Source: a virus
IMG/VR virus record: IMGVR_UViG_3300037485_001192
Location: 1 to 31,062 of that record
Direction: 5' to 3' (one strand)
DNA: 31,062 nucleotides
Each line of letters opens with the position of its first letter. Position 1 is the stretch's first letter. A model generated the notes under the pieces. The model saw nothing but the letters and a program-made list of their open reading frames with translations. It ran no database searches and had not been told where the DNA came from. Positions 2,089 through 26,690 of this stretch are shown here, piece after piece. A program made the translations under genes and the position numbers.

Positions 2089-3253
2089 AAACTTCAGCGT
2101 TTTAACGGGGTGGGCGGGGTCGGGGACAAACCCGCCGACAGCTTATGCGCTTAATGCACATCCTGAATTTATAGCAGACGAGCTTTCAAATTCCGTTATA
2201 TTTAAATTTCCAGCTGGATCACTTAACAAGTATATACAAAAAACAATATCGGTCGATGTGAGCGATTATGAAGAGTGTGTATTTTCGATATGGAGCCGAA
2301 ACAAAACAAGTAATGAGTATAACAGAAAAGATGATTTTTTTTATAAGATAGATTTTGGCGGAACTGGTTATTATATACCGGTTAGTGAAAATTTTGGAAT
2401 GGTTAATTTCTATATTGGAGACTTGACAACCCTGTCGAGAATAAGAATTACGTGTCTGCATAATGATGAAGATTATTTAATAGTATCAAGCTGTCAGGCA
2501 ATTAAAGAACAACTTCCGCTTGATATATTTTCTAGCTTAAAAACAAGCATGAGAACTTTTATTGATACTCAAACTCAAATAAGTTGCGGAACTGTGACAT
2601 GTTCAGCAAATGCGACATCCGTCACGGTCACAGGGAATAATTATTTTTTAGAACGATATGCAGTAATTAAAATTACTGATTTAACGAATACAGAATATCA
2701 TCAAATTATAGAGACAGACGGAGAAGGAGTTTATAAATTTTCAAGCCTATACGATGGTACCAAGATGTTGAATTCCTATACATCGGCAAATGTGTACTTA
2801 TATATTCCGGTTGAGTATGGTCTTGACTCAACTGAAGTTTTGTTACCGGGGATAATCATAAATGGTTTTACGCCTGAAAGTATTTTAAGAAGTTCAACGC
2901 TCGAAACTGTTTATGATACATTTAAAGATACTGACATCATATCGTCAATGAGAGAGGCCAGAATATTTCAATATGGAATTATGGTTGATTGCGAGTCTAG
3001 GCATTTAGAAATAACAAATTTAATGAGTGAATATATTAGAAAATTTATATCAAAACAAAAGCTTTGGTTGAACGGGCAAGATTGCGAAATACAATTTGAA
3101 GGGATACCGACATATTTAGAGCCAGTTGACCCTAATTTTGTAATTCATAAAATGCAATATATTTTTAATATTGAGTATAAAGAAAGTATTTATTCTAGGA
3201 CGGCATTGTCGATTTCTAATGATCCGACAATCGCAATAGAAATTTCACAGTGA
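2045..3253 (+). CDS. Probable tail terminator fused to an N-terminal beta-sandwich domain
   Basis: Up to 402 aa. Position between tail-completion protein and sheath is that of the tail terminator, which caps the tube and sheath. The last 130 or so residues (from about 275) alternate helices and strands, with VYDTFKDTDIISSMREARIF near the start and FVIHKMQYIFNIEYKESI near the end, consistent with a terminator fold. The first 150 residues look different: IENFSVLTGW, Gly/Asn turns and beta-rich segments, as in jelly-roll carbohydrate-binding modules. A middle linker has TVTCSANATSVTVTGNNYF. The start is uncertain: TTG at 2045, or TTG at 2072 a few bases after an AAGGAT site. There is no in-frame ATG near. 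Domain names are inference; the two-part layout is visible. Confidence 0.55.
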   Translation: MQKTIRIWDLRTTIENFSVLTGWAGSGTNPPTAYALNAHPEFIADELSNSVIFKFPAGSLNKYIQKTISVDVSDYEECVFSIWSRNKTSNEYNRKDDFFYKIDFGGTGYYIPVSENFGMVNFYIGDLTTLSRIRITCLHNDEDYLIVSSCQAIKEQLPLDIFSSLKTSMRTFIDTQTQISCGTVTCSANATSVTVTGNNYFLERYAVIKITDLTNTEYHQIIETDGEGVYKFSSLYDGTKMLNSYTSANVYLYIPVEYGLDSTEVLLPGIIINGFTPESILRSSTLETVYDTFKDTDIISSMREARIFQYGIMVDCESRHLEITNLMSEYIRKFISKQKLWLNGQDCEIQFEGIPTYLEPVDPNFVIHKMQYIFNIEYKESIYSRTALSISNDPTIAIEISQ

Positions 3254-3261
3254 GGTAGTTT

Positions 3262-3522
3262 ATGGCAAAAGAAGAAAAATTTTCAGGTGAGTTGAGTGTT
3301 GATACATATAGCGGTTCGCAAAAACCAAAAAAGAAATATATAATACAAAGCAAGGTTAATGCGACTACTGAATTATATGTCGGAAGATTATATTTCAAGT
3401 TCGGTCCTTACGAGGTGCTGACAAGAGATATTGATAATAAAAAAATAAATGATGATGTTATAAATCATCCTGACTTTTTGCAACAGTCAGAAAAATACAG
3501 CTATAAAGAGGTAAAAGAATGA
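3262..3522 (+). CDS. Small protein preceding the sheath, unknown
   Basis: 86 aa. Starts at an ATG with a GAGG site 9 bases upstream and overlaps the sheath gene by four bases (ATGA). The N-terminal third is charged and probably flexible (EEKFSGELSVDTYSGSQKPKKK). The rest has LYFKFGPYEVLTRDI, then a helix around NHPDFLQQSEKYSY. Small proteins of this size sit just before the sheath in several Mu-like and P2-like tail operons (compare Mu gp38), but I see no motif that proves homology. Confidence 0.55.
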   Translation: MAKEEKFSGELSVDTYSGSQKPKKKYIIQSKVNATTELYVGRLYFKFGPYEVLTRDIDNKKINDDVINHPDFLQQSEKYSYKEVKE

Positions 3523-5336
3523 GTAGACAAATACTCGGAGTTTACGGGGCTAATTTACCGACAAAAAAAACCCTGACAGTGGAAGCGGCAGACTTTGGAA
3601 TAGGATGCGTATACGGTGTATTTGAAAGAAGTTATGCAAATGCTTATGCTGTAAATAACATGGCAGAGTTTCAGGAAATATTTGGAATAAATTTTTCAAG
3701 CTCATACTATGGATATGATACGGTTAATTTATTTTTCCAAAATACGTCGGGAACTACGGCAAAAACATATGTAAAATCTTTTATAGGGAATACGGGGTCA
3801 GCGGTTGACGCTGTAGTCGCTACAGTCTCAATAAATGACTTATTGCCGACTGTAATTTTAAATCTTTTTGCGGCCTATAAAAATGATAAAGAATATGGGA
3901 CACACGGAAACAGGATCGGTTATACAATAACTAATGGAGCAAGATTTACAACAGCTCTTAATGGTGGCCATGCTGCATCGTTGACCGTGGTTACCGTTGA
4001 TAGTGTGTCAGGAATACGTGTGGGAGACATTGTGAAAGTTGTTTGTACAGGTGCGCCATCGACTCAATATTTTGAAGTTGCTACAATAGATGAAACTAAT
4101 AAAACATTTACTTTCACAGGCGGCGGAATTTTTACAGGAACCGGAGCGGATAACGATGTTGTCACGGTTATGGGTATTAGGGTTCGGGTTTATGAAAAAG
4201 GTTTGACTGGAATAATAAAAGAAGTTGAAACTGAGATAGGACAGACATACTGCTCAATGCAAAGTTCGGTAAGTGAATTTTATATTCAAAATGTATTTGC
4301 TAATCATAAATATATGAGAATAGACGTGGCAGCAAGCGCGGCTACGTTGGAAAAAAGATTTCCTGCCGATGTGTCCTCAGTTGCATATCTGGCAAGCGGG
4401 GCAGCGGGAACGGCGCCGACAACTGTAAGCCACTGGCAGTATGAATTTTTAACAACACTAAGATTTGATAATCTTACATTTAGGTTTTTATGCTGTCCGG
4501 AAACTACTCTGGCAACAGTTAACAACATGATGGAAACATACTGTTATGGACGATGGGACAATCCAAAAGTACTTTTTAATTTGCCGTCAAATCAGACGAA
4601 AGCGCAACTTATAACAATCGGTAATAGTTATCAGGTGTCAAGAGATACTTTGGGAATAGGTGTTGCTCATTGGTTATATATATCAGATCCTTTTGTCAAT
4701 AGCCCTACGGCGCCATATAGAGCTGTTCCGAACGTGGGGGCGGTTATGGGTGCATGGATTAAGACTATTAACACATATGGCATACATGTCGTGCCAGCGG
4801 TTAAGGAGATTTCGATTTCTGGAATAACTGGAATATATGGAACTCAATTCACGGCAGCGGTTGACAGGACAGATCTTGCCGAAGCTGGGATTAACTGCAT
4901 GGAAACTCTATCGGGTTATGGCAATGTAATAAGAAATTTTAGAACATTTAGCATAACAACTGAGTTTAAATATGCAAATGGAATTTTGATGAGATCATTT
5001 TTTCAAGTTTCGGCTGTCAATAGTTTGCAAGGCGAAGAAAATAAACCAAATAGTCTATCAGCGATTGCACAAAATAAAAATTCGATTGAAATGTTTTTTA
5101 GGAGAATGTGGGATAGAGGGTCTACTGGAAATGTGTCCAAAGGTGAAACTTTTGGAATGGGCGTAAATACAGATGGCTCGCCAACCACATTCAGCGATCA
5201 TATAGTTTTGCAGGCAGATGCGGTTAATAATCCACAGTCAAACATAAACCTGGGAATCAGAAAAATTGACGGTTGGTATTCGTATCCCGCACCGGCAGAA
5301 ACTATTATCATAGGTATAGGAATATTATTAAGGTAG
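3519..5336 (+). CDS. Contractile tail sheath protein
   Basis: 605 aa, a usual size for sheath proteins. It polymerises around the tube and contracts on infection. The N-terminus carries the family pattern of a short strand followed by GIGCVYGVFERSYANAYAVN, a segment naming the target (EFQEIFG) and a strand with KTYVKSFIG. A middle insertion of about 130 residues (FTTALNGGHAASLTVVTVDS and onward) looks like an added surface beta domain. The C-terminus, with EMFFRRMWDRGSTG, INLGIRKIDGWYSYPAPAE and a final hydrophobic strand IIIGIGILLR, matches the conserved sheath core, whose end donates a strand to neighbouring subunits. The tube gene follows 12 bp later, the standard order. Confidence 0.85.
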   Translation: MSRQILGVYGANLPTKKTLTVEAADFGIGCVYGVFERSYANAYAVNNMAEFQEIFGINFSSSYYGYDTVNLFFQNTSGTTAKTYVKSFIGNTGSAVDAVVATVSINDLLPTVILNLFAAYKNDKEYGTHGNRIGYTITNGARFTTALNGGHAASLTVVTVDSVSGIRVGDIVKVVCTGAPSTQYFEVATIDETNKTFTFTGGGIFTGTGADNDVVTVMGIRVRVYEKGLTGIIKEVETEIGQTYCSMQSSVSEFYIQNVFANHKYMRIDVAASAATLEKRFPADVSSVAYLASGAAGTAPTTVSHWQYEFLTTLRFDNLTFRFLCCPETTLATVNNMMETYCYGRWDNPKVLFNLPSNQTKAQLITIGNSYQVSRDTLGIGVAHWLYISDPFVNSPTAPYRAVPNVGAVMGAWIKTINTYGIHVVPAVKEISISGITGIYGTQFTAAVDRTDLAEAGINCMETLSGYGNVIRNFRTFSITTEFKYANGILMRSFFQVSAVNSLQGEENKPNSLSAIAQNKNSIEMFFRRMWDRGSTGNVSKGETFGMGVNTDGSPTTFSDHIVLQADAVNNPQSNINLGIRKIDGWYSYPAPAETIIIGIGILLR

Positions 5337-5348
5337 GAGGTTGATAAA

Positions 5349-5765
5349 ATGCAGCAAAAGGATATGGCCGAAAAGAGAAGATTATTTGTTGACGGCTCTG
5401 AATTAACAGGGCTTGTCAGTGTAGCAGAATATAAACTTGAAAAGGGAACCATCGAGGTTCCCGAGTTTGACAAAATTCGAGTTATACAGAATGGCGTAAG
5501 AAAATTACAGCCATTAGAAGCAGTATTTAAAATCCAAAGAAATAGTCAGACACTAAAAAAATTGTGGGACTGGTACGACAATAATGAGATACATGATATT
5601 TCCATGGAGAGAACAGATGCGCACGGAAACACTTTTGAAACTGATATGTTTCCAGATTGTGAATGTAACTCTGTAAATTTGCCAGCATTCGATGCGGCAA
5701 ATCCGATTTATGCACAAATCAATGTTCGATTTATTCCTTGGGACATTGATCATAGGAGTTCATAA
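5349..5765 (+). CDS. Tail tube protein
   Basis: 138 aa, directly downstream of the sheath, with GGAGG at about 9 bases before the ATG; an internal Met at codon 6 is an alternative start. Tube proteins of this class (P2 FII and Mu gpM type) are single beta-barrel domains that stack as hexamers. The sequence shows the expected series of strands: RLFVDGSELTGLVSVAEYKL, TIEVPEFDKIRVIQNGVRK, AVFKIQRNSQ, DISMERTDAHGN and a closing strand YAQINVRFIPWDI. It overlaps the chaperone gene by one base (TAATG). Confidence 0.75.
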   Translation: MQQKDMAEKRRLFVDGSELTGLVSVAEYKLEKGTIEVPEFDKIRVIQNGVRKLQPLEAVFKIQRNSQTLKKLWDWYDNNEIHDISMERTDAHGNTFETDMFPDCECNSVNLPAFDAANPIYAQINVRFIPWDIDHRSS

Positions 5766-6592
5766 TGATAAAATATCCTGTTCCAATTCTAAACAACAAC
5801 AATGAATACACAGGGTGCGATATACGAAAGCCATCCCCAGGACTTATAGCCGATGTTAAAAAAATGGCAGAGACTGGGGATAAGTTTTCATCAACACAAG
5901 TTTTTATTGAAGGTATTACAACCTCAATATATAAAGGAGGTCAGGCAATAACGGATAGATTGTCAATAAAATCCATCCTCAAAAACACTCCATACCGTAC
6001 AGCAGAATATATATTGATTAAATCAATGTTATTGCTTGACCCTTCCGATTATATCGAAGGATATTATCAATGTCCGAGGTGTGGACAGACTATCACATGC
6101 GAACTAAAAGAAGAAAATGATCAAATGATTTTTGATACTAGGGACAGGATATCTGATTTATCGTTAAAATGTTTAGAAAAATATGAAGATATTAAAATTG
6201 ACTTGTCTGATCCGGTTGAAATTATGCAAGGCGAAGAACAGGTAGAGAGCGTTGGAAGTTTCGTTATGGGACATCCAACATTAAAGGATTGCATAACAGC
6301 CTATCAAAGGGTTGGAGATAAAGACGATTTAAGACTTCAATTTGCTATTTATACAGAGGCATTAAAGAAAATCAATAATACAAATATAGATAGTAAATGG
6401 AAAAACAGAAATGGAAAATATTTATTTGATAATTTAAAAAATTTCAAAAAGGATTTTGTTAATATTACAAATAAAGTTAATGAATATGGTCTCGATAAAA
6501 GACTAGAAAAAACTTGTAAAAATTGCGGCAAGGTTTTTAAGGCGGTTGTGAATACATCAAATTTTTTCGACTTCGATCTTCAGCGTATGTAA
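5765..6592 (+). CDS. Tail assembly chaperone, zinc-ribbon form (in-frame product)
   Basis: 275 aa zero-frame product, between tube and tape measure, where myophages encode the tail chaperones that hold the tape measure during assembly. Two CxxC pairs (CPRC at residues 103-106 and CKNC at 251-254) suggest a zinc ribbon, as in the T4 gp26-like baseplate assembly family. The segment between is helical (TAYQRVGDKDDLRLQFAIYT). The last residues (VVNTSNFFDFDLQRM) run through a slippery heptamer at 6559-6565, after which only 9 zero-frame codons remain before the TAA. The gene therefore very probably makes two products; see the longer entry. Confidence 0.72.
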   Translation: MIKYPVPILNNNNEYTGCDIRKPSPGLIADVKKMAETGDKFSSTQVFIEGITTSIYKGGQAITDRLSIKSILKNTPYRTAEYILIKSMLLLDPSDYIEGYYQCPRCGQTITCELKEENDQMIFDTRDRISDLSLKCLEKYEDIKIDLSDPVEIMQGEEQVESVGSFVMGHPTLKDCITAYQRVGDKDDLRLQFAIYTEALKKINNTNIDSKWKNRNGKYLFDNLKNFKKDFVNITNKVNEYGLDKRLEKTCKNCGKVFKAVVNTSNFFDFDLQRM

Positions 6593-6807
6593 CCGCTGAG
6601 GATCTGGCCGAAAGTTTATGGGTATTCAATAGCCTTGATTATATTGATTTTAATATAGAGGTTTTCATAAAAGAATTTTGTGTCATTAGTTACAGTCTAA
6701 AAGGCGGGTTGGGGTATAAGGATTTAAAGTTTATGGATTTTGATGAATATGAGATTATTATCAAAGAAGTAAATGAATTGAATAAGGAATTAAATAAAAA
6801 TGAATGA
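5765..6807 (+). CDS. Tail assembly chaperone, predicted -1 frameshift product
   Basis: If ribosomes slip back one base at the A AAT TTT heptamer (6559-6565), translation continues in frame -1 from 6565 to a TGA at 6805-6807, giving about 347 aa: 267 shared residues plus an 80-residue extension. The extension looks like real protein (YVTAEDLAESLWVFNSLDY, then VISYSLKGGLGYKDLKFMD) and has no in-frame start codon or ribosome site of its own near its beginning. It would otherwise leave a 207-bp untranslated gap in a tightly packed operon. Its end overlaps the tape-measure start by 8 bp. The arrangement matches the lambda G/GT and P2 E/E' chaperones. The shift itself is inferred. Confidence 0.7.
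6559..6565 (+). promoter_or_regulatory. Programmed -1 ribosomal frameshift site
   Basis: The heptamer AAATTTT is phased with the zero frame as A AAT TTT (X XXY YYZ, X = A, Y = T), so both tRNAs can re-pair after a one-base slip. A further TT follows. The -1 frame is open past the zero-frame stop at 6590-6592 up to 6807. Confidence 0.68.
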
Positions 6808-8281
6808 TCTTGAATTAACATTTAATCCCAATATGTTTCTTGATGGAATAAAAAAAATCAATGATGGTCTTGTATCGTTAAATCAAAAATTTCAGTCAAG
6901 TGCCGATAAAATGAATACAGCTTCTACAAAAGCCAGCAAAGTAAACAAGACAAATATGGCAGATACCGGCAAAGGCGTTAAGTTATTTTCAGAGGGGATG
7001 AATTCTTCTTTAAATGGATTGCTTGCCAAAGTAGGAGCTATCGGCGCGGCCTATTTAGGATTTAAATCAATACTTTCAAGAATGCCTGAAATAGGACAGA
7101 CGTTTTCAATTGCCGGAGAAATACTTATGAAGAATCTACTCTGGCCATTGAGACAAGAGTTGATGCCGTATTTACAAAAAGTTTTAGACTGGGTAAGAGA
7201 AAATAGATTCAGATTTTTACAATGGGGAACGGTTCTTGTAAATATATTCAGGGCAATTATACAAGTTGGCAAGGCGGTAATCGATGCACTTAAACCGATA
7301 TTTGATGCATTTTCAAACGTAACCAAAAAGATGTTTGGTAATTCCGTAAAGACTATTTCTGATTTATTGAATATAGTTTTATTTAGATTAACGGTTGTTG
7401 CGTTATTCATGGTTGAAATATTAAAACCGGTGTTTAGAGCAATAGGGAAATTGATTGAAGTTGTTTACGATCTTGGAAAAGTTTTCATGGATAACGCTTT
7501 AAATTTTGACACTTCATTTTTGGGGACGTGGACAGAGGCTTTCACGAGTCTATCTCATGCAATAAGTGAGTTAATAGATGAATTAACAAAGTCAGAGGTT
7601 GCGGGCCCGATACTTGACGTTTTAAGAACTGTAATGGCTATGCTGGGAAAAACAATAAATATTATGTTTGTGGCACCGTTAAAATTTGCAATACTCGTAT
7701 TAAGAGATTTTATAAAGCTCATAACTTTTTTAATTAGTGGAAACGTGTCAAAAGCTCCCGCATGGTTGAAAACTTTTCATAGTTTTTTAACAGGACTTTC
7801 AAATGCTTTTAATGATATAGGAAATAAAATTTCAAACTTTTTTTCAAATCTAGGGAATACGATAACTGGATTTTTTTCAAATATGATTGACGGTGTTTTA
7901 AATAAATTGAGGGCGTTAAAAGATTATTTAAAAGACTCGATTCTCGGATTAGTTCAAAAAATTCAGGACAAAATAAATGAATTAACTGGAAAAGTAAAAG
8001 AAGTTTTTGGAGCTGGTGGGACCACGGCAGAGAAAATAAAACAACAGGTTCAGGCTGCCAAAGATTTACAAAGTCCGTCCAGAATAAATACTAATAACAT
8101 ACAGAATAAACAAAGCAATAATAATGTCAAAATTGACATAGGCGAAATAAAACTGACCGCCAACAACCCTGACGATGCAAGAACGGCCGCAGATGAATTT
8201 ACAAAACGATTAAAGCAGAATATGGATTTCAAAGGGTTGTTAATGGGCGGGCTTAACGAAAATGCATTAGGGAGAGGATAG
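6800..8281 (+). CDS. Tape measure protein
   Basis: 493 aa, short for this family. It sets tail length; at the usual rough 1.5 Angstrom per residue the tail would be around 70-75 nm (family rule, not measured). The start ATG overlaps the end of the frameshifted chaperone frame. The N-terminal 60 residues are helical and Lys/Asn/Ser rich (LVSLNQKFQSSADKMNTAST). Hydrophobic segments follow: LAKVGAIGAAYLGFKSIL, LFRLTVVALFMVEIL and PLKFAILVLRDFIKLITFLI. Further on are phenylalanine-spaced repeats (SNFFSNLGNTITGFFSN) and a helical C-terminus. The last 90 residues are polar and end with a conserved-looking NENALGRG. It stops one base before the next ATG. Confidence 0.82.
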   Translation: MNDLELTFNPNMFLDGIKKINDGLVSLNQKFQSSADKMNTASTKASKVNKTNMADTGKGVKLFSEGMNSSLNGLLAKVGAIGAAYLGFKSILSRMPEIGQTFSIAGEILMKNLLWPLRQELMPYLQKVLDWVRENRFRFLQWGTVLVNIFRAIIQVGKAVIDALKPIFDAFSNVTKKMFGNSVKTISDLLNIVLFRLTVVALFMVEILKPVFRAIGKLIEVVYDLGKVFMDNALNFDTSFLGTWTEAFTSLSHAISELIDELTKSEVAGPILDVLRTVMAMLGKTINIMFVAPLKFAILVLRDFIKLITFLISGNVSKAPAWLKTFHSFLTGLSNAFNDIGNKISNFFSNLGNTITGFFSNMIDGVLNKLRALKDYLKDSILGLVQKIQDKINELTGKVKEVFGAGGTTAEKIKQQVQAAKDLQSPSRINTNNIQNKQSNNNVKIDIGEIKLTANNPDDARTAADEFTKRLKQNMDFKGLLMGGLNENALGRG

Positions 8282-8869
8282 ATGAATTTTAACACTCCAA
8301 ATGTTCCTTTTAGCTTACCATTCTGGATGATGGATATTTCAAACTATCAGTTAATAACTTCCAAGATTGTGCCGTCTGACATATCAGATACAAAAGACAT
8401 AGTTCTCGTAGAAGTTCCGATTCCTGGACTTAATTTTCAACCTGTCATGCAAGGCGGTGGCGGAAATAGAAAAATAAGTTTCACTTTACAGCTTATTAAA
8501 AGAAATAATACAATCGGAAATTTGTTGATGCTTAAACAGTTTGATATGTTGAGAAATCAGGCGAAGGGATTATTTAGTTTTTTTAGTGATCAATTTACCA
8601 GTTACCCGAAAGTTTTGTTTAACTGGGGCATAGGTTCAGTTCCGTTAATTTGGTATGTCGTTAAAGCCGATGTCACGCATAGGCAAGGATGGGTTAATCA
8701 GTGGGGTATGCCGATGGTGTCAGAGGTTAACGTGGAATTGATACTTGATGAAAATAATGTTCTTTATAAAGTTGAGGAAGTATTTAGAAAGTTGTCTGCT
8801 TTTGTTGGTATGGTTACGGGTCTTGTGGATGTTATTCAATCGGAAACTAAAAATGAGAGGATTTACTAA
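8282..8869 (+). CDS. Baseplate tube-initiator-like protein (CIS tube / XkdP type)
   Basis: 195 aa, first gene after the tape measure. The motif VEVPIPGLNFQPVMQGGGGN followed by the strand RKISFTLQLIKR is typical of the domain that starts the tail tube on the baseplate in Mu-, PBSX- and CIS-type systems. This is followed by a helix (IGNLLMLKQFDMLRNQAKG) and a strand with the pattern VNQWGMPMVSEVNVELILDE near the end, which is also family-like. In many relatives a LysM domain is fused at the C-terminus; here it appears to be carried by the separate next gene. The stop overlaps that gene by one base (TAATG). Confidence 0.62.
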   Translation: MNFNTPNVPFSLPFWMMDISNYQLITSKIVPSDISDTKDIVLVEVPIPGLNFQPVMQGGGGNRKISFTLQLIKRNNTIGNLLMLKQFDMLRNQAKGLFSFFSDQFTSYPKVLFNWGIGSVPLIWYVVKADVTHRQGWVNQWGMPMVSEVNVELILDENNVLYKVEEVFRKLSAFVGMVTGLVDVIQSETKNERIY

Positions 8870-9141
8870 TGTGGATGTTTGACACGCTGGATATTCCGTT
8901 CTCTTGGTTAAACAATACAACGTATAATATTAAAGCCGTTAAAGACATACCTGCTTATAATAGATGCATAGACTACAAAATAACAAGCGGTCAGCTAATA
9001 GATGAAATTGCAACTAAAAGCGAGATATACGGAGAGGGACGGGAAAGTGATTCATATAAAATTTTTGAAGCCAACGCATGCGTGTTGGTAGAAAATAAAT
9101 TTGATTTAACAAAAATAAAAACTTTAAAGATACCAGTATAA
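8869..9141 (+). CDS. LysM-like tail protein (gpX type)
   Basis: 90 aa. The C-terminal 50 residues follow the LysM pattern: DEIATKSEIYGEG, then YKIFEANACVLV and a closing LTKIKTLKIPV, corresponding to the usual D-IA-YG, I-aNp and L-G--L-IP landmarks. P2 gpX and the LysM end of PBSX XkdP have this role in the baseplate, probably helping to centre the hub. The 'ANA' at the usual 'ANP' site and the weak final glycine are departures. Overlaps both neighbours by one base. Confidence 0.62.
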   Translation: MWMFDTLDIPFSWLNNTTYNIKAVKDIPAYNRCIDYKITSGQLIDEIATKSEIYGEGRESDSYKIFEANACVLVENKFDLTKIKTLKIPV

Positions 9142-10403
9142 TGCTAGAAATTACACAGTGGGACAGCTCATATTTCAGGATAGAACTTTCTGGAATATCT
9201 CAATTAAATCCGCTTTATGAAGAGCTGACAAATAAAGTTATATCCTTTTCGATAACTGAAGAAAACAATATGATGATGACCGGGGATATAGTATTTAAAG
9301 AAGATGATAATCAGATGATGTCAACTATTTTGGCAGTGGGAAAGAGTCTTGATATAACATGGGGATACAAAGGAAACAATATTACATCTTTGGATATAAC
9401 AGCTAAAATGATTTCAAACCCTACTGAGATATATTCACCCGCTGCGCCGTCAAGATTTTGCAAAGGGTTGATCAAGTCAATTTCTGGAGCTGGCGACGCA
9501 TCAGGAAAACAAGAAATAAGAGTTTCGTTTGTTGCGTTAATGCTGGACAAGGCTTTAAAAAATAGAAATTTTACAAATGACACTTTACCGGGATGCAATA
9601 GACAAATGGCCGTGACGGTTCCGATGTTGGAACTAGGCGCAACTCCAATTATTGATTTTTCTACCATGATGGAATCAACAAAAGAGTTTCAAATAAACCA
9701 GACTAATTTTAGATTTTTATCTAATTTGGCATTTAAATATAATTGTTTGTTCAGACTCGGATTTACAAAACTTGGAACTCAGGTTGGATTGTTTTGTGAT
9801 TATGATAACGATACGGCAATACAGGCGTTTATAAATCAATGTCAATCAACTCTAGGCGTATCTTGCGTTATGAATTATAAATTAGGAAGCCCCGCGAATG
9901 TTAAAAGTTATGATTGGACGATAAACCCAAGCCAGGGCGGCGGGGATAATGTAAGAATAATGTATCAGAACGGAAACCCTGTTTTTTTGAGAACAATTGC
10001 CACGCCTCAAAGTACAATAGTATATAAATTAAATTCAGCCAAGATAGCGACAGATTTGGGAGCACAGGGAAACCCCGCAAAAATGGTTGCTTTAGTATCT
10101 GAGCTTTTAAAAATAGACACCATGGACGAACTAGTGAATAAAAAATATTTTGAGCCAGTATCCCAAACGACTGCACCGCAGGGCATAGGCATGCAGATAA
10201 ATCTTGAAGTACTTGGAAACCCTTATCTAAGCCCACCGGCTAGGATTAAATTTGGAGAAGGTTTCCCAAACGCAGTTAAGATAAAAACTCTTATATATTT
10301 TATACAGAAAGTTACACATAAAATCGACAGAACTGGTTATTCATGTACTTTGAATGTAATCGATGCTTGGCAATTTGGTTTGTCAATGGTAGGAGTTAGA
10401 TGA
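9141..10403 (+). CDS. Baseplate hub protein (gp27 / gpD late-control type)
   Basis: 420 aa, placed between the LysM protein and the spike, as in P2, Mu and PBSX. The hub trimer joins the tube to the spike. The sequence is rich in short strands with the family feel of tube-like domains: VISFSITEENNMMMTGDIVF, DITWGYKGNN, FCKGLIKSISGAGDASGKQ and KQEIRVSFVALMLDKALK near the first third. Further on, FQINQTNFRFLSNLAFKYN matches the segment that in gpD-like proteins reads as a helix after the first tube domain. The end (YFIQKVTHKIDRTGYSCTLN) is also characteristic. It overlaps the spike gene by four bases (ATGA). Confidence 0.72.
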   Translation: MLEITQWDSSYFRIELSGISQLNPLYEELTNKVISFSITEENNMMMTGDIVFKEDDNQMMSTILAVGKSLDITWGYKGNNITSLDITAKMISNPTEIYSPAAPSRFCKGLIKSISGAGDASGKQEIRVSFVALMLDKALKNRNFTNDTLPGCNRQMAVTVPMLELGATPIIDFSTMMESTKEFQINQTNFRFLSNLAFKYNCLFRLGFTKLGTQVGLFCDYDNDTAIQAFINQCQSTLGVSCVMNYKLGSPANVKSYDWTINPSQGGGDNVRIMYQNGNPVFLRTIATPQSTIVYKLNSAKIATDLGAQGNPAKMVALVSELLKIDTMDELVNKKYFEPVSQTTAPQGIGMQINLEVLGNPYLSPPARIKFGEGFPNAVKIKTLIYFIQKVTHKIDRTGYSCTLNVIDAWQFGLSMVGVR

Positions 10404-11047
10404 GTATAGATTTAACAGCAAGAGGATTATTAAACTCTATCATACTGGAGGAGACTAAATATTTACGTCACTATCCGGCAATAGTAGTAACCAATGTCGA
10501 TATTGAAAACAAGGGCAGAGTTCTTGTGACTTGTGACGAGCTTGGAATGTCAACGCCTGATTTGGGAATATGGGCAGTACCTAGATTTATGCATTCAATG
10601 ACCGTCCCGATGATAGGGGAATATGTTGAGCTTTATTTTATTGCGGGTGATCCAAATAGACCGGTATATCTTGGAAAGTGCAATGAAATGTTTTTACAAT
10701 TGCCAAATACTTTTGACGGTAAATTTACGACTCACGTTGTATTTGAAAGCCCTACTTTAAAAAAAGGTATTGTATTTGATGAAGTTCTTGGAAAGTTAAT
10801 ATTAGATTTTATACTGTGTGAAATAGGGGCGGGGGCTAGCGAGGCTATGGTTTTGGGTAATACTTTAAAGACAGAATTGCAAAAAGTGGTAGACCAATTA
10901 ACTCAACTAAATGCAGATTTTACAGCATGGGTTCCCGTGCCAAATGATGGCGGAGCCGCCTTAAAGACTGTTTTGGGAACTGGGTTTTTGACAAAGCCGC
11001 AAGCATTATTGACTAGTATTTTAAGTTTATTTGTAAAAACCAAGTGA
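10400..11047 (+). CDS. Baseplate spike protein (gp5 OB-fold / gpV type)
   Basis: 215 aa. Residues 25-95 form an OB-like domain of the gp5/gpV type: HYPAIVVTNVDIENKGRVLV, then GIWAVPRFM, VPMIGEYVELYFIAGDPNRP and VYLGKCNE, matching the usual 'G-V-V-----G-V-v-', 'w-----p--G---ip--Ge-V-v-F--Gdp--P---G' order. The C-terminal part is helical with no obvious enzymatic domain or repeat, so the needle is short or formed elsewhere; no PAAR gene is seen beside it. It acts at the tip of the tail and pierces the outer membrane. The next gene follows 6 bases later. Confidence 0.78.
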   Translation: MSIDLTARGLLNSIILEETKYLRHYPAIVVTNVDIENKGRVLVTCDELGMSTPDLGIWAVPRFMHSMTVPMIGEYVELYFIAGDPNRPVYLGKCNEMFLQLPNTFDGKFTTHVVFESPTLKKGIVFDEVLGKLILDFILCEIGAGASEAMVLGNTLKTELQKVVDQLTQLNADFTAWVPVPNDGGAALKTVLGTGFLTKPQALLTSILSLFVKTK

Positions 11048-11053
11048 GGATAT

Positions 11054-11449
11054 ATGCGACAAATGACTGACCTTGCGGATTTTGATATTTTTTTTCACTA
11101 CGGGGAGAATGATCTTGATTTGGAAATAGAATCTGATTTGATGTGTTTAGTATTGCAAAATAAAAAATCAATGTTTTATGACAGGTCATACGGCGGAGGA
11201 GTTAATGAAAATTATCCAAACAGTTTAGTTCAGGCAATATTGTTGCCGTATAATATCGTGTCGAGTATTGGAAGGGAGAATCAAAAGGTCAGCGATGGAA
11301 ATAACGGACATCCCGATAGACGAATAGCCGTAAGTCAGGCGGCGGTAAAAATTGAACAAGAATGGAATGAAATGAGGGTATTGATACCATATATAAAATT
11401 TGTTGACTATAATACATTACAAATGATAACTGTAAACAGGGGGGCTTAA
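11054..11449 (+). CDS. Baseplate wedge protein gp25-like
   Basis: 131 aa, usual size for gp25/gpW lysozyme-like wedge proteins. The sequence shows LQNKKSMFYDRSYGGGVNEN, followed by NIVSSIGREN, RIAVSQAAVKIEQEWNEMRV and a strand at the end (LQMITVNRGA). Family members carry an EPR sheath-binding motif near the helix before the strands; I do not see a clear EPR here. The call rests on size, on the position just before gpJ and on the A-I-A---I--W-P-i-like helix. It overlaps gpJ by one base (TAATG). Confidence 0.68.
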   Translation: MRQMTDLADFDIFFHYGENDLDLEIESDLMCLVLQNKKSMFYDRSYGGGVNENYPNSLVQAILLPYNIVSSIGRENQKVSDGNNGHPDRRIAVSQAAVKIEQEWNEMRVLIPYIKFVDYNTLQMITVNRGA

Positions 11450-13179
11450 TGTTTAACTATACAAGCCGAACTTATAATACTATTTTAGCTGATATAAATT
11501 CAGATACAAATTTAACAGACAAGCCGGATTGGTTCAAAAATATGGTTGCGGGTTCTCACGATGTTTTGTCACTCGCTTTGAATGCGGCTGTAAATGATCT
11601 TTATTTGTCAACCGCATTTACGGAGCAATCGGTTGATAAATTATTGCAATTGATAGATTACCAGCGAGCGGCAAGAACTACGTCAAGCGGATCTATATTA
11701 TTTGACATATTGAGAACGGCGACATTTCCGGTAACCGTTGCGACAGCCGATGTAGTGGCATATAGTCAAGGGAGCGTATCGGTATCGTCTAAAAGGTTTG
11801 AAGCCCTTGCAGGGTTTACGCTGGCCTCGACTACGGAGACAGGCACGAGATCAGGCAATACTTTAACAGTTGCTAGAGTTTATACTACAGGGGAATTATT
11901 CAGAATTTCAGGGGCTGGACTTCCTAGCCCTTTAGTGATATCAACTGATTATTATGCCATATACGATTCAGCAACCTCAATAAAAGTAGCAGCGTCAAGA
12001 ACTGATGCATACAACGGGACATATATTACATTAACTGGGGCTGGATCAGGCACTATAAAATTATTTAGTCAAAAAGTCACTTGCTATCAACAAACATCTA
12101 AAACAAATGTTATCGTGGGAACGAGTGACGGCTCGGCATCGTTCCAAGAGTTTAACATGCCGGAATTGGATGTATTAAAAACGTCAATATCAATAACGAT
12201 AAACTCGTTATCATGGACAAGGGTTGATACATTTGTTAATTCGATTAGTACCGACAAGCATTATAAAGTTGAATATAAAACAGACGGGTCTTGTGTTTTA
12301 GTATTTGGAAATGGCACATATGGCTTAATACCGCCTGCGTTTCCGATTTATGCTAGTTACGCAATAGGCGGGGGGACAGCTGCGAACATAACGGTTTTGA
12401 ATAAAATAAATTCTTATGCCGGAACTGACTCGAACATAACAGCCGCGTCAAATTGCACTACATTTTCAGGCGGAGCAGACAGGGAAGCTATTGCAGTATC
12501 AAAAAGACTTGCTCCAATACTTTTAAAGACTAGAGATAGATTTGTCACGGTTGAGGACGGAGAAAGTTTGGTTTTAAATTATGGTGGCATTCAATCAGCC
12601 TCAATAGACAGAAATTACTATGGAGTTTTGTCATGTAGAGTTGTTATAGTGCCAACGGGCGGGGGGGCTCCAGCGGGGGCTCTAGTAACGGCATTGCAAA
12701 ATTATTTAATTGATAGAACTATACTTGAAAGCATTGACGTTGTGGTGATTGGGGTATCATATGTCAATACGGCGTTTACGTCATCGTTGCATGTTAAAAC
12801 TGGATATGTTTACGCAACAGTCAAGCCATTTTATGAGTTAGGAATTCTGATGTCGATATCAGAAAAGAGTCAAGAAATAAAAACATATTTACTTGCTAAC
12901 GGTATAGCAAGTACAATAACGTTAATAAACACATATTGGTATGCTACCCTTGGATATGCTTTTACAAGTGCAGATTATACGCAAGTATCTAATATAGTCA
13001 CTTATTCGACAGCTCCGACAATAGGGGGTTCAATTTATGAGCCTGATGTCGTAGGTGTTTTAGATCAGTGGGTTGACGGAGTTGATTATTTTACAATTAC
13101 GCTTCCGGCAGCTTTTCCGGTTTCATTCGCAAGCAATCAAATAAGTCATGAGGGTGCAATAACGACAACGAGTGTTTAA
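11449..13179 (+). CDS. Baseplate J-like protein (gp6/gp47 type)
   Basis: 576 aa, at the large end of the family. The N-terminus has the usual helix and start (NTILADINSDTNLTDKP, then LSLALNAAVNDLYLSTAF). The mid-region holds the hallmark GGGTAANITVLNKINSYAG followed by the acidic and Gly-rich ASNCTTFSGGADREAIAVSK and LKTRDRFVTVEDGESLVLNY, which match the conserved 'GG-aGN---g-i---' and 'D---fe' blocks of gpJ proteins. An inserted beta region at residues 140-220 (TETGTRSGNTLTVARVYTTG) is repetitive in Thr and Gly and may be an added Ig-like part. It forms the wedge ring with gp25 and gpI. Only a single base separates its TAA from the next ATG. Confidence 0.8.
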   Translation: MFNYTSRTYNTILADINSDTNLTDKPDWFKNMVAGSHDVLSLALNAAVNDLYLSTAFTEQSVDKLLQLIDYQRAARTTSSGSILFDILRTATFPVTVATADVVAYSQGSVSVSSKRFEALAGFTLASTTETGTRSGNTLTVARVYTTGELFRISGAGLPSPLVISTDYYAIYDSATSIKVAASRTDAYNGTYITLTGAGSGTIKLFSQKVTCYQQTSKTNVIVGTSDGSASFQEFNMPELDVLKTSISITINSLSWTRVDTFVNSISTDKHYKVEYKTDGSCVLVFGNGTYGLIPPAFPIYASYAIGGGTAANITVLNKINSYAGTDSNITAASNCTTFSGGADREAIAVSKRLAPILLKTRDRFVTVEDGESLVLNYGGIQSASIDRNYYGVLSCRVVIVPTGGGAPAGALVTALQNYLIDRTILESIDVVVIGVSYVNTAFTSSLHVKTGYVYATVKPFYELGILMSISEKSQEIKTYLLANGIASTITLINTYWYATLGYAFTSADYTQVSNIVTYSTAPTIGGSIYEPDVVGVLDQWVDGVDYFTITLPAAFPVSFASNQISHEGAITTTSV

Positions 13180-13180
13180 T

Positions 13181-13831
13181 ATGTTACCAATACCATCAAG
13201 CAAATATATACCTCAATTATATAATCAATATGCAAATACTGACAGGGACTCTTTTACCGCAAAAATCGACGAGCTATTAAATGACATATTGACAGATGTA
13301 ATAAATTTAAGATATTTATTCGAGCCTGATAGATGCCCGTCTTCTGCGTTAACATTTTTGGGTGATTTTGTAAAAGCAGATTTAAAACAAACTGACAGCG
13401 ATCAGACAAAAAGAATTAAAATTTATTATGCAATCTTGGGTCATAAAAATGCGGGTTTGTGGAATGATAATGTCAAAAATCAAGTGGATGCTATAACTGG
13501 ATACGATGCTAGAATTTACAGAGGATATGATTTGCCTAATTGGATTTTTATTGGGGATGGAGTTGTGGGGGCTGGCAAGCACTATGCCTATCTAGGCGGG
13601 GACGGTTTAACGACATATGCGTTACCATTGATAGGACAAGGGAATGAGATACAAATTAAGGGTAACATATATGTTAATTGCCACTATGGAGTTTATACGG
13701 CTGTTTTGACTAGTGATCAATTATTGCAAATTATAGATTTATATAACGAATATTTACCGGCATACATGGAAATGTGGTTTGGGTACATAAATGTTGCTGG
13801 GCAGTTTACATATTATTTTGTTTATCCGTAG
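13181..13831 (+). CDS. Tail protein I-like baseplate protein
   Basis: 217 aa from the ATG at 13181, one base after the gpJ stop; a GTG at 13172 in frame is possible. The segment DSFTAKIDELLNDILTDVIN and then CPSSALTFLGDFVKAD resembles the P2 gpI signature, where the conserved 'P---LP-LAw-l' and 'W' region follow an N-terminal helix. KRIKIYYAILGHKNAGLW corresponds to the 'H--kGT' turn of gpI proteins. It is expected to connect the gpJ ring to the tail fibre, and lies exactly between the two. The C-terminal aromatic residues (WFGYINVAGQFTYYFVYP) suggest a fibre-docking end. Confidence 0.7.
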   Translation: MLPIPSSKYIPQLYNQYANTDRDSFTAKIDELLNDILTDVINLRYLFEPDRCPSSALTFLGDFVKADLKQTDSDQTKRIKIYYAILGHKNAGLWNDNVKNQVDAITGYDARIYRGYDLPNWIFIGDGVVGAGKHYAYLGGDGLTTYALPLIGQGNEIQIKGNIYVNCHYGVYTAVLTSDQLLQIIDLYNEYLPAYMEMWFGYINVAGQFTYYFVYP

Positions 13832-22474: not shown

Positions 22475-22513
22475 CAGATTATATCCGTATTCATATATAT
22501 TTTAAAGGCAATT

Positions 22514-22681
22514 ATGATAAAAAAAATATTTAAATCTGATTTCATACATAGATTTGTTTACAGGAACACTAATTATAAATTAGTATATTATGATAATTTA
22601 CTTGACAACAATAAATTATCTGATAATATTAAAGATGTTCAGTATGATAATTGGTGTTGTCATACTGAATATGATATCTGA
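22514..22681 (+). CDS. Small protein, unknown
   Basis: 55 aa (MIKKIFKSDFIHRFVYRNT, ending DNWCCHTEYDI). It is AT-rich, aromatic and Asn/Asp rich, and has an AAAGG site about 6 bases before the ATG. No family recognised. The 437-bp region after it, up to 23118, has no gene. Confidence 0.45.
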   Translation: MIKKIFKSDFIHRFVYRNTNYKLVYYDNLLDNNKLSDNIKDVQYDNWCCHTEYDI

Positions 22682-22755
22682 TTGATTTTTTATGACTGAC
22701 AAATAGGATCATTTCTATTTTGCAATGGTGTGCAATAGGTTATAAAAAATTATAT

Positions 22756-22936
22756 GGAGACGCAATCCTTAACCGCGTTGGCGTGGGGGAAAATTAGAAA
22801 GGCCTAACCCCAGGGGGAAATAAAGATCTTCGCCTTAAGTAAGATCATTCTATGGGTTTTGCATAACGACCTTTTCGGCTCTTATGGCAGGATTGACTTT
22901 CAATCGGGGCCGGATAGCAAGACCCATAGAATTAAA
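22756..22936 (+). ncRNA. Candidate structured RNA or other folded element
   Basis: GC is about 48% by hand count over 22756-22930, in a region otherwise near 30% or less, with no open frame. Helices visible: TGGGG(22784-22788)/CCCCA(22808-22812) with TTAG/CTAA inside; GATCTT(22825-22830)/AAGATC(22841-22846); then at once a 16-bp stem 22847-22862/22917-22932 with a single G.U pair, enclosing CGGCTC(22876-22881)/GGGCCG(22907-22912) and GATTGA(22891-22896)/TCAATC(22900-22905) with a 3-base loop. Strand is assumed from the neighbours; a DNA-level structure cannot be excluded. It matches no RNA family that I recognise and lacks a clear promoter of its own. Confidence 0.5.
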
Positions 22937-22944
22937 AAATTTAC

Positions 22945-22973
22945 TTGACAATTTTGTTTATATTTAGTAAGTT
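22945..22973 (+). promoter_or_regulatory. Promoter P3 before the replication initiator
   Basis: TTGACA (22945-22950), 17-bp spacer ending in TTTAG, and TAAGTT (22968-22973), with an ACT before the -35 and an A/T tract upstream as in P1 and P2. Expected start near 22980, giving a leader of about 140 bases before the initiator ATG at 23119. Confidence 0.65.
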
Positions 22974-23019
22974 AAATTATAAATAGGGCTTGGCGGCCTT
23001 TTTGCATGGACTGATATTA

Positions 23020-23100
23020 AGAGCTTTCAGTAGAGGATTTCCATTTTAATTACCATGCGATTAACTTGGAACGCCAATCCTCTATTGAAGGCTCTTTTTA
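23020..23100 (+). terminator. Terminator-like hairpin in the initiator leader (attenuator candidate)
   Basis: Arms AGAGCTTTCAGTAGAGGATT (23020-23039) and its partner at 23076-23095 form a 20-bp stem with G.U wobbles over a 36-base loop, followed by TTTTTATTTT. The leader also holds TTGGCG(22990-22995)/CGCCAA(23072-23077) and GCATGG(23004-23009)/CCATGC(23053-23058), which cross or overlap the terminator stem. The leader could therefore choose between a terminator and an alternative fold, or simply yield a ~120-nt small RNA. Confidence 0.6.
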
Positions 23101-23118
23101 TTTTATAGGAGTTAAAAA

Positions 23119-23934
23119 ATGAAATATACAATTGAAGGTCTTTCTCAGCAAAAACTTATTGATTTAAATCTTGATAATACAGACGCTTTAATAATTAGAT
23201 GGTTTTTAGATTTTAAAGCAACTGATAAAATGGTAAAAGTTAAAGAATATTTTTGGGTAAAATACGATGCAATAATAAACGATTTACCTTGTATTGGAAT
23301 ACATAATAAAGAGGTTATGGCAAGGCGATTTAAAAAATTTATTATCGCTGGAATTATGACCGGACATACCGAACGTAATTCAAAAGGTACATTCTCTTGT
23401 TATAATACTACTGATAAAATACTTGATTTAATATATGAGACGACTCAAAAGTCGAATGGTGACGACTCAAAAGTAGATACCCCACCCGACTTAAAAGTAG
23501 AACCAAAAGACTCTTCTATCAATTTAAATCAATCTATTAATAATATAAAGAATGTGGGTAAACCCACTATCGATAAAGTTGAGTCACATAATCACCTGAA
23601 TATGGTCAAAGCATTCAATGACTCTTACAAGTCGATATACAATAAAGATTTTGTTTGGAGTGATACAAAACAGCTTAAAGCAATTAAGCTATTGTTAAAA
23701 AAAGAAATACCTGATTTAAAAAAACGGCTGGAAGATTTTTATAAATATTGCAAATTGCATCCGAAAGATAAATATCATATTTTTACCCCGATGCACATCT
23801 TAAGTAATATTAACAATTTGCCATCAGTAATTAACGATAATAAAATAAACAGTAAGGAAGAGTTTGAAAAACGATATAAACAAACTGAAAAAGAATTTAA
23901 TGAATTAAAATTAAAACGAGGTATGAAAATATGA
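23119..23934 (+). CDS. Replication initiation protein (replisome organiser, lambda O-like role)
   Basis: 271 aa with AGGAG 8-9 bases before the ATG. N-terminal 110 residues look like a winged-helix domain (LNLDNTDALIIRWFLDFKAT, then KEVMARRFKKFIIAGIM), as in phage initiators that open the origin. A low-complexity linker (about 110-155: TTQKSNGDDSKVDTPPDLKV) is followed by a helical C-terminal part (KQLKAIKLLLKKEIPDLKKR, YHIFTPMHILSNINNLP) resembling DnaD-type domains that bind helicase or loader. The linker DNA carries three iteron-like repeats. It overlaps the next gene by four bases (ATGA). It is the likely control point of replication together with the leader upstream. Confidence 0.75.
   Translation: MKYTIEGLSQQKLIDLNLDNTDALIIRWFLDFKATDKMVKVKEYFWVKYDAIINDLPCIGIHNKEVMARRFKKFIIAGIMTGHTERNSKGTFSCYNTTDKILDLIYETTQKSNGDDSKVDTPPDLKVEPKDSSINLNQSINNIKNVGKPTIDKVESHNHLNMVKAFNDSYKSIYNKDFVWSDTKQLKAIKLLLKKEIPDLKKRLEDFYKYCKLHPKDKYHIFTPMHILSNINNLPSVINDNKINSKEEFEKRYKQTEKEFNELKLKRGMKI
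23439..23501 (+). repeat. Iteron-like repeats inside the initiator gene (candidate origin)
   Basis: Three related 17-base units: GACGACTCAAAAGTCGA (23439-23455), GACGACTCAAAAGTAGA (23461-23477) and CCCGACTTAAAAGTAGA (23485-23501), spaced 22 and 24 bp, about two helical turns. The first is itself palindromic (CGACT-CAAA-AGTCG). A looser copy, GACTCTTACAAGTCGA, lies at 23620-23635. AT-rich DNA follows at 23515-23552, and a perfect hairpin GTGGG-TAAA-CCCAC at 23554-23567. The layout recalls the lambda origin, whose iterons lie in gene O. Binding is inferred. Confidence 0.55.
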
Positions 23935-24334: not shown

Positions 24335-24351
24335 GGAAAAAAGGGGTGGGC

Positions 24352-25488
24352 ATGGAAACATTAGAAATAAAAAATTTTATAACTGAACTAATTCAGAATA
24401 AAAATTTTTCAGAAAAAGTAAATTTAATAAATGATCTTAGAGAACATATTCACAAATTGTCTCCATTTGAAAAAGAACCAGTAGATTTTGTAAAATGGGT
24501 TGAATGTGATAAGGTTGTAGCAAATGAGTATAATCCAAATAAAGTGGCTCCTCCTGAAATGCAGTTGTTGGAAATAAGTATCACAAATGATGGTTTTACG
24601 CAGCCTATAGTGACATTTCCAAAAGATGATAAAATTGAAGTTGTAGATGGGTTTCATAGGAATAGAGTTGGAAAAGAATCAAAGGTAGTTCAAAAAAGAA
24701 TAAATGGATATTTGCCAACAGTTATAATTAGGAAAGAGCAGAGTTCTAAAAATGATAGAATAGCCTCGACAATAAGACATAATCGAGCGAGAGGAAAACA
24801 TATTGTAGATGCGATGTCTGAGATTGTAATAGAATTAAAAAATAGGAATTGGAAAAATGAAAGAATAGCTCGAGAATTAGGAATGGATCAAGAGGAAATA
24901 TTAAGGTTATGTCAAATAACTGGGTTAGAAAGTCTTTTTAAAGATGATGATTTTTCCAAATCTTGGAATATAGAAGACTCTGAAATGGATTTCGAGCCAT
25001 TGACGGATGAAGTTACAGAAGAGGAAAAAAAATTAAATAATTTTAGAACAATAAACACTAATGATAAAGAAAGAGTTTTTCATACTTATGATAAATGGGA
25101 ATGTTTTAAGGCTGGATTTTATAATACTCATGTTGATGGGATGACTAAGGATCAATGTGAAAATGAATATGCTAAATTTTTATCAGATGAGAATTCTTTT
25201 AGAGATGCTCTTGAACACATTATAAATGAATGGGTTAATTCTTGTGAACATTATTTAACAAATAAATCTATGAACCGGATAGCGTATTTAGGGCAAGCCG
25301 CTTTATGCTATGCTCGACAAATTCCAAATGTTTTTAGAGGTGGTTTTTATTTATTATCAGAATCTCAACAAAAAAAAGCTAATGAAATAGCATTAGAGTA
25401 TCTTAATAAATGGTTAGAGAATAATAATAGAAATCCTGTTTCATTGGAAGAGGCAATTCTTGAGAACAAGGAGAATAATATTTACTAA
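24352..25488 (+). CDS. ParB-like nuclease-domain protein, IbrB type
   Basis: 378 aa from the ATG at 24352, with AAGGGG 5 bases before it; a GTG at 24346 is also in frame. Residues 40-140 form a ParB/Srx-like domain: DKVVANEYNPNKVAPPEM, ISITNDGFTQPIV, the motif VVDGFHRNRVG, and ASTIRHNRARGKHIVDAMSE, followed by a helix-turn-helix-like part (NERIARELGMDQEEILRLCQ) and TGLESLFKDDDFSKSW, all in the order of IbrB. From about residue 230 a further domain begins (YDKWECFKAGFYNTHVDG, then SCEHYLTNKSMNRIAYLGQA), longer than basic IbrB. It is the first gene of the pair with the PAPS-reductase-like gene, overlapping it by one base. Function in phages is not established. Confidence 0.72.
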   Translation: METLEIKNFITELIQNKNFSEKVNLINDLREHIHKLSPFEKEPVDFVKWVECDKVVANEYNPNKVAPPEMQLLEISITNDGFTQPIVTFPKDDKIEVVDGFHRNRVGKESKVVQKRINGYLPTVIIRKEQSSKNDRIASTIRHNRARGKHIVDAMSEIVIELKNRNWKNERIARELGMDQEEILRLCQITGLESLFKDDDFSKSWNIEDSEMDFEPLTDEVTEEEKKLNNFRTINTNDKERVFHTYDKWECFKAGFYNTHVDGMTKDQCENEYAKFLSDENSFRDALEHIINEWVNSCEHYLTNKSMNRIAYLGQAALCYARQIPNVFRGGFYLLSESQQKKANEIALEYLNKWLENNNRNPVSLEEAILENKENNIY

Positions 25489-26690
25489 TGAATATAAAAA
25501 AATATCAATCTTATAATGTTTTAACTGCCTCCAAGGATAGAATAAGTAAAGTATTTGATGATTTTGAAAAAATATATATAAGTTTTTCGGGTGGCAAGGA
25601 TAGCTCAGTGATGACTCATTTGGTTATGGAAGAGGCAATTAAGAGGAATAGAAAAGTAGGGTTGTTGATTATAGATTTAGAAGCTCAGTATTCTGATACG
25701 ATAAAGCATGTTTATTCAATGGTTGATTTATATAAAAACAATATCGATTTGCATTGGGCATGTGTTCCTTTGTTATTAAGAAATGCTGTTTCTAATTATG
25801 AGCCAAGATGGGTTTGTTGGGATGAAGAAAAAAAAGATGTTTGGGTAAGACAAATTCCTGAGTGTGCTAAAACAGAAAAAGATTATCCTTTTTTTATTCC
25901 AAAAATGGAGTTTGAAGAGTTTATGGTTTTATTTGGAAAATGGTATGGTGATGGAAAATTGACGGCTGCCTTTATTGGGATTAGATGTGATGAGAGTTTA
26001 CATAGATATATGGCGATTGCCAGTAATAAAGATGGATTGACATTTAAAGATTATAAATGGACAACTAAAATATCAAAAAATTTATATAATATTTATTCTA
26101 TTTATGATTGGAAAACAGAAGACATCTGGATTTATCATGGAAAATATCCTGATAAAATTCATAATAAAGTTTATGACAAAATGAATATGGCGGGGGTTAA
26201 GTTGAGCCAGCAAAGACTATGCCAGCCTTATGGAGACGACCAAAGACGAGGATTGTGGCTATATCATATATTGGAGCCTGAAACATGGTATAGGGTAGTA
26301 GCTCGAGTTAATGGTGTTAATTCTGGATCATTATATATTCAAGAAACTGGAAATATGACTGGATATAATAAGATAACAAAACCAAATAATCATACATGGG
26401 AAAGTTTTTGTAATTTGCTTTTAAAAACTATGCCGCCAAAAACAAGAGATCACTATAAATCAAGATTTAAAAAATTTATTTCAGGATGGAGAGACAGAGG
26501 ATATAATAAAATTCCTGATGAGGCCCCGATAGAACTTGAAAATGCATGTTGGTGTCCATCATGGAGAAGACTATGTAAAGTTCTTTTAAGAAATGATTAC
26601 TGGTGTAAGGGGCTTGGGCAAACTCAACCTAAATCAGAGGCTTATATAAAATTTAAAGAAATACAAAAAAATAAAAAAAAGGAAAAATAA
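25488..26690 (+). CDS. PAPS-reductase-like PP-loop protein, IbrA type (DUF3440)
   Basis: 400 aa. Adenylating PP-loop family. The loop FSGGKDSS is at about residues 33-40 (S34-G-G-K-D-S39), followed by LLIIDLEAQYSDTI, the IbrA-like 'iD-EaqY--T' segment, and later FIGIRCDESLHRY and YSIYDWKTEDIWIYHGKYP, as in DUF3440. CWCPSWRRLCKVLLRNDYWC near the C-terminus adds Cys residues that could bind metal. In E. coli IbrA acts with IbrB on gene expression. The biochemical reaction is not known, and a modification of nucleic acid by sulfur or nucleotide transfer is only a possibility. It overlaps the primase-helicase by one base. Confidence 0.75.
   Translation: MNIKKYQSYNVLTASKDRISKVFDDFEKIYISFSGGKDSSVMTHLVMEEAIKRNRKVGLLIIDLEAQYSDTIKHVYSMVDLYKNNIDLHWACVPLLLRNAVSNYEPRWVCWDEEKKDVWVRQIPECAKTEKDYPFFIPKMEFEEFMVLFGKWYGDGKLTAAFIGIRCDESLHRYMAIASNKDGLTFKDYKWTTKISKNLYNIYSIYDWKTEDIWIYHGKYPDKIHNKVYDKMNMAGVKLSQQRLCQPYGDDQRRGLWLYHILEPETWYRVVARVNGVNSGSLYIQETGNMTGYNKITKPNNHTWESFCNLLLKTMPPKTRDHYKSRFKKFISGWRDRGYNKIPDEAPIELENACWCPSWRRLCKVLLRNDYWCKGLGQTQPKSEAYIKFKEIQKNKKKEK

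Follow-up and report, generated by a model that had tools for sequence, protein, structure and literature searches.

A candidate small structured RNA joining a conserved 5' module to variable tails in distantly related phages

Genomic setting

The stretch of DNA analysed here (the window) comprises the 31,062 bases of a virus record and carries one module for replication and one of structural genes for a contractile tail. The structural module (positions 360-13831) is collinear with that of the Leptospira phages LE3 and LE4 (21-44%) and also, at up to 62%, with three IMG/VR contigs (G001, G002 and G004) and a Treponema MAG, all of which were reached through alignment with LE3/LE4. Together with the window, these form a deep group of myovirus-like spirochaete phages. 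For the tail sheath, LE3 and LE4 were the sole matches (34%), and protein scans with the initiator and the sheath recovered no viral relatives, nor, for the initiator, any in genome contigs. Because its relatives are Leptospira phages, IMG/VR contigs and a Treponema MAG, the window phage likely infects a spirochaete. Two further features of the window were recorded. A ParB-like gene and a PAPS-reductase/DUF3440 gene (24346-26690; IbrB/IbrA-like) have counterparts in at least 80 viral contigs, with identities reaching 85%; these contigs mostly lack the window phage's other genes, so the two look like a mobile pair. A strong hairpin at 5926-6075, in which GGTCAGGCAATAAC pairs with GTTATTGCTTGACC, lies in or overlaps the gene at 5765-6592 and represents the largest departure from shuffled sequence in the folding scan.

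The element considered here (22756-22936) adjoins a DUF551 gene and sits in a 644-nt non-coding gap that precedes a probable replication initiator gene (23119-23934, + strand). The product of this gene resembles the replication initiation proteins of Tetrasphaera phage TJE1 (37.5% by tblastn) and Fusobacterium phage phiFN37, in keeping with the position before an initiator proposed in the initial annotation, and has relatives in nine of 393 spirochaete genomes. The element is a GC-rich island, at 46.4% GC (originally counted as 48%) against 32.8% for the whole window and 22% and 30% for its flanks (22475-22755 and 22933-23118), and, as first described, contains no listed open reading frame of at least 60 aa. 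Its + strand folds at -61.3 kcal/mol compared with -48.1 kcal/mol for shuffled sequences (z -3.2, none of 200 shuffles as good), while the minus strand gives a z of -2.7. Among 413 segments of 150 nt, only the one beginning at 22951, which belongs to a distinct hairpin (region C), has a lower folding energy than the one beginning at 22801. A drawing with six nesting helices is possible where at least five had been reported, and the reported 16-bp stem with one G.U pair is exact (22847-22862 with 22917-22932, 94% complementary).

The remainder of the gap contains several other candidate signals. A consensus scan identified a promoter-like TTGACA-16-TAATAT at 22602-22629 (+) that could drive the element. 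It is followed in region A by an inverted repeat, TTCAGTATGA...TCATACTGAA, and then ATTGATTTTTT (22634-22690, +), whose link to the element is putative; this promoter-like sequence, long hairpin and T6 (22602-22690) could equally be read as a possible separate small RNA. Region C (22983-23101, +) is an inverted repeat forming a 20-bp hairpin with a T-run (z -5.3, 0 of 200 shuffles), a possible terminator lying directly before the initiator ATG with its own promoter-like TACTTGACAA immediately upstream (~22942). It is the nearest terminator-like structure in the window, ~170 nt past the element. The region C loop sequences CCATGC and CGCCAA complement GCATGG and TTGGCG upstream, and it is possible that a pseudoknot or alternative pairing with this upstream sequence might control the initiator gene. 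Promoter-like sites of the TACTTGACAA type recur at ~17458, 22601, 22944 and 28708, and possibly constitute one phage promoter class.

A conserved 57-nt module shared with other phages

Searching for homologues by BLASTN, the check suggested at the outset, returned nothing from named phage, plasmid and E. coli collections. Against 393 genomes of the spirochaete phylum it gave one clear match, to two prophage copies in Sediminispirochaeta smaragdinae (formerly Spirochaeta smaragdinae), which are identical to each other across the element and match 22757-22809 of the window only (85% identity over 53 nt, E 1e-9). Fixing 23 bases from this comparison as a search pattern added one viral contig from IMG/VR (L134). 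With the pattern relaxed to 16 bases, 28 stretches were returned; the complete flanking consensus is present in four of them (L155, L168, L169 and L171), which score 43-52 bits with model R1. The five contigs together span 43-66 bits, whereas other pattern matches reach at most 19 bits. Since the looser pattern itself dictates 16 bases, agreement of its four contigs at those positions was excluded from the evidence; GAGAAAATTAGAGCC and a 5' GAGAYGC are conserved largely outside the search pattern. A covariance model (R2) built from the five contig loci, without the window, recovered from 1.1 Mb both the window module (51.8 bits, E 4e-12) and the S. smaragdinae copy (56.4 bits). Counting L168 and L171 as the same kind of phage and the S. 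smaragdinae copies once, there are about six independent contexts including the window, a figure that underestimates the breadth of the family as the collection scans relied on exact patterns. Weak R1 matches in other spirochaete genomes had the appearance of coding sequence or chance and were set aside.

The element is absent from the phages with related structural genes (LE3, LE4, G001, G002 and G004), from the loci reached via the mobile PAPS-reductase gene and via the primase-helicase gene (L082), and from the nine spirochaete initiator loci. The phages that carry the module range from 33% to 57% GC and have little else in common.

The homologues divide the element into two parts, a conserved 5' module (22756-22812, +; GGAGACGCAATCCTTAACCGCGTTGGCG-TGGGG-GAAAATTAGAAAGGCCTAA-CCCCA) and a 3' domain (22813-22932). 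Judged by sequence comparison, the conserved unit is the 5' third of the element rather than the 16-bp stem. The 3' domain is probably lineage-specific: a scan of 457 kb of related sequence with a model of it (R3) returned nothing beyond the domain itself and its complement. Short words common to this domain and S. smaragdinae (GCATAA, TTATG and GATAGC) were considered and dismissed, being at chance level, with nothing found by R3.

Comparison with known RNA families gave no assignment. At the gathering score, Rfam 15 had no match on the elements of the window, S. smaragdinae, L155, L168, L169 or L171, and at relaxed E-values nothing credible appeared on those of the window (E<=10), S. smaragdinae or L134; the relaxed scan of the window yielded chance matches to short snoRNA and miRNA models, all outside the element. 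The Rfam models for GOLLD and ROOL did not match, and ARAGORN found no tRNA or tmRNA in the window. A group I intron was rejected as there is no Rfam core match, the element is shorter than 200 nt and it interrupts no gene. The initial impression that the element falls in no known family has thus held, and the open-access literature searched yielded no description of its RNA.

Structure and covariation of the module

Across its members the module has the consensus GAYGCAAUCNUUAACYGCRUUGGCG - NNNGG - (A)GAAAAUUAGA - CCNNN, from which the L134 loop differs by one A-to-G change. Two helices are predicted within it. Helix 2 (22784-22812, +) pairs 22784-22788 with 22808-22812 and encloses the conserved GAAAATTAGA. 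Its arms read TGGGG/CCCCA in the window, CCCGG/CCGGG in S. smaragdinae, GGCGG/CCGCA in L134, GGTGG/CCATT in L155 and L171 and GCTGG/CCAGC in L169, so that pairing is kept in 24 of 25 cells, and the true assignment outranks all others among the 120 permutations of the 3' strands; in the window and S. smaragdinae the arms are farther apart than elsewhere and were matched by eye. Three of its pairs show 3-4 pair types, and inside the helix a TTAG/CTAA pairing is also available in the window and S. smaragdinae. Helix 2 is therefore a well supported, covarying prediction, displaying the compensatory changes expected of a structured RNA family.

Helix 1 (22759-22779, +) pairs 22759-22763 with 22775-22779 (GACGC/GCGTT) around a conserved 11-nt loop and is less certain. 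It shows a single compensatory change (C-G to T-A), is broken by a C.A in L155, and 144 of 720 permutations do equally well; in alternative folds it competes with a hairpin of the form YGC-RUUG-GCG (22774-22783). Of the two helices, compensating changes keep helix 2, and helix 1 is a tentative prediction. Stretches from S. smaragdinae and L134 fold no better than their shuffles. In the broader sense, the initial suggestion of a structured RNA not yet described is supported by the existence of homologues, the compensating changes in helix 2 and the lack of an Rfam family, with 22756-22812 as the part open to comparative testing. The ribozyme that had been listed as one option gains no support from these results.

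Variable tails and compact members

Sequences 3' of the module differ among phages, some ending in intrinsic terminators. In the window, folding tentatively places a small hairpin, GATCTT/AAGATC, 3' of the module (helix 3, 22825-22846, +), and the relatives read have a hairpin of other sequence after theirs. Helix 3 is followed by the 16-bp stem (22847-22932, +), which encloses hairpins at 22863-22885 and 22886-22911. The two S. smaragdinae prophages agree over the module and its flanks, then carry unrelated inserts of ~116 and 73 nt, and are alike again afterwards; these inserts (L128:3475-3590 and L129:3389-3460) occupy the same point and have ends able to pair, as if a hairpin domain had been swapped within a larger RNA.

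The most compact members occur in late operons, where the module of L155 and of L168/L171 starts directly past the upstream gene's stop codon. A strong intrinsic terminator follows the module within ~60 nt. The terminator stems of L155 and L168/L171 differ in sequence while the hairpin and T-run are kept. In L155, TGCTATAAT also lies a few bases before GAGACG, at a promoter-appropriate distance, giving this locus both a promoter-like site and a terminator, and L168 and L171 a terminator. The closeness of the terminator and the upstream TGCTATAAT in one member suggest that the compact members are ~112-nt small-RNA genes.

In every occurrence the module shares the strand of the adjoining upstream gene, and in five contexts it lies 0-97 nt past a stop codon. 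The neighbouring genes vary: Acb2 is immediately upstream in L169 (Pfam Acb2_Tad1_hairpin, E 1e-18), a Tad2-like gene lies downstream in S. smaragdinae (E 2e-27), an HNH gene is upstream in L134, and a 105-aa gene adjoins the module in L168/L171, with a relative one gene farther upstream in L155. These surroundings suggest an accessory cassette, in a sample too small for statistics. In L134 a tRNA (748-812, minus strand; Rfam 32 bits) is a separate neighbour ~150 nt downstream of the module.

Possible functions of the element

On present evidence, the element is probably a small structured phage RNA that acts as RNA and belongs to a family outside Rfam. That it acts in trans is a more tentative proposition, plausible but short of probable. 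In such a model, the + strand RNA would present the module as a fixed scaffold that docks on a conserved host or phage partner, contact being made through the nearly invariant AAUCNUUAAC, UUGGCG and GAAAAUUAGA, while the interchangeable tail would set stability or specificity. The RNA would travel with genes such as Acb2, Tad2-like and HNH genes in an accessory ('moron') cassette, and the window transcript would start at the 22602 promoter or closer, run through the element and stop at region C (~23101). Extending this model, we speculate, with considerable reserve, that the family is an RNA effector class with a fixed 5' docking module and swappable tails, spread among phages of unrelated hosts and directed against a host target such as defence, RNA decay or the transcription machinery.

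The chief competing reading is a transcription element acting in cis, in which the nascent RNA binds RNA polymerase or NusB/S10 and governs readthrough or regulation of a downstream terminator, in the manner of HK022 put or the boxA-boxB nut sites; we regard this as unlikely, though deserving of consideration. The module indeed stands before a terminator in L155, L168 and L171 and before a terminator-like hairpin in the window, but in L155 and L168/L171 it follows a stop codon within a late operon and not a promoter. Its loop and stem are, to our knowledge, unlike those of boxB. The put RNAs are ~70 nt with two stem-loops and require no dedicated protein (PMC9378689), although they belong to early lambdoid operons. 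The loop TCNTTAAC is boxA-like and precedes a hairpin as in nut sites, and the TCTTTAA of the boxA consensus GYTCTTTAANA (PMC5725501) is matched exactly in L155, L168 and L171; however, in the window, S. smaragdinae, L134 and L169 the motif has C or G at its fifth position, and the consensus is not matched in full, with AATCCTTAACC in the window deviating at several positions.

Other explanations treat the sequence as DNA or as coding. A DNA site targeted by recombination or homing, located like integron attC where accessory cassettes end at their 3' side, would fit the 0-97 nt spacing from stop codons in five contexts, the accessory genes alongside and the HNH gene adjoining in L134. This DNA-level reading nonetheless seems improbable, as the module always takes the strand of the upstream gene, three loci have terminators, helix 2 pairing is kept while its sequence changes, and no recombinase was seen to recur across the contexts read; we also know of no attC with a TTAAC/GTT spacing like that of the module. 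It is very unlikely that the module encodes a very short conserved peptide, (M)ETQSLTALA..., even though three of its four variable sites are third positions in one frame and a 17-codon ATG frame spans it in the window. Starts and stops are not conserved, frames vary across loci, and the Leu codons TTA and TTG are unchanged in phages of 54-57% GC, a persistence that argues against selection on a peptide. Least likely of all is the replication structure that had been offered as one option, and which the position ~186 nt before the initiator gene would favour. No known relative adjoins an initiator, the nine spirochaete initiator loci have no copy, and relatives are found in late operons or beside Acb2, HNH and Tad2-like genes; it is these neighbours, rather than initiators, that make a replication role unlikely.

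The preferred reading, a small RNA acting as such, bears on a field in which few phage non-coding RNA families are known, and in some phages the element is near anti-defence or homing genes. The compact members, at ~112 nt, can be directly synthesised and tested. If action in trans is correct, they would offer a transferable phage RNA tool; if the element acts in cis, protein-free antitermination would extend far beyond lambdoid phages.

Comparison with known systems

Among known systems, GOLLD and ROOL are likewise structured non-coding RNAs of phages and prophages, often found by tRNA genes, as with the tRNA ~150 nt away in L134, and GOLLD has one conserved and one variable half, as here (PMC12286853). 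GOLLD members are, however, often >800 nt, whereas the present family has its conservation in the 5' part, can have members of ~112 nt and matches no Rfam model. HK022 put shares the ~70-nt size and two stem-loops (PMC9378689) but differs in genomic position, the comparison with put being one of published description. The nut sites resemble the module in the boxA-like core of TCNTTAAC with a hairpin next to it (PMC5725501), and differ in their full boxA consensus. Small regulatory RNAs of phages that have a promoter and a terminator to themselves share the anatomy of the compact members, in L155 for both signals and in L168/L171 for the terminator; what distinguishes the present family is a module common to very distant phages and joined to unrelated tails.
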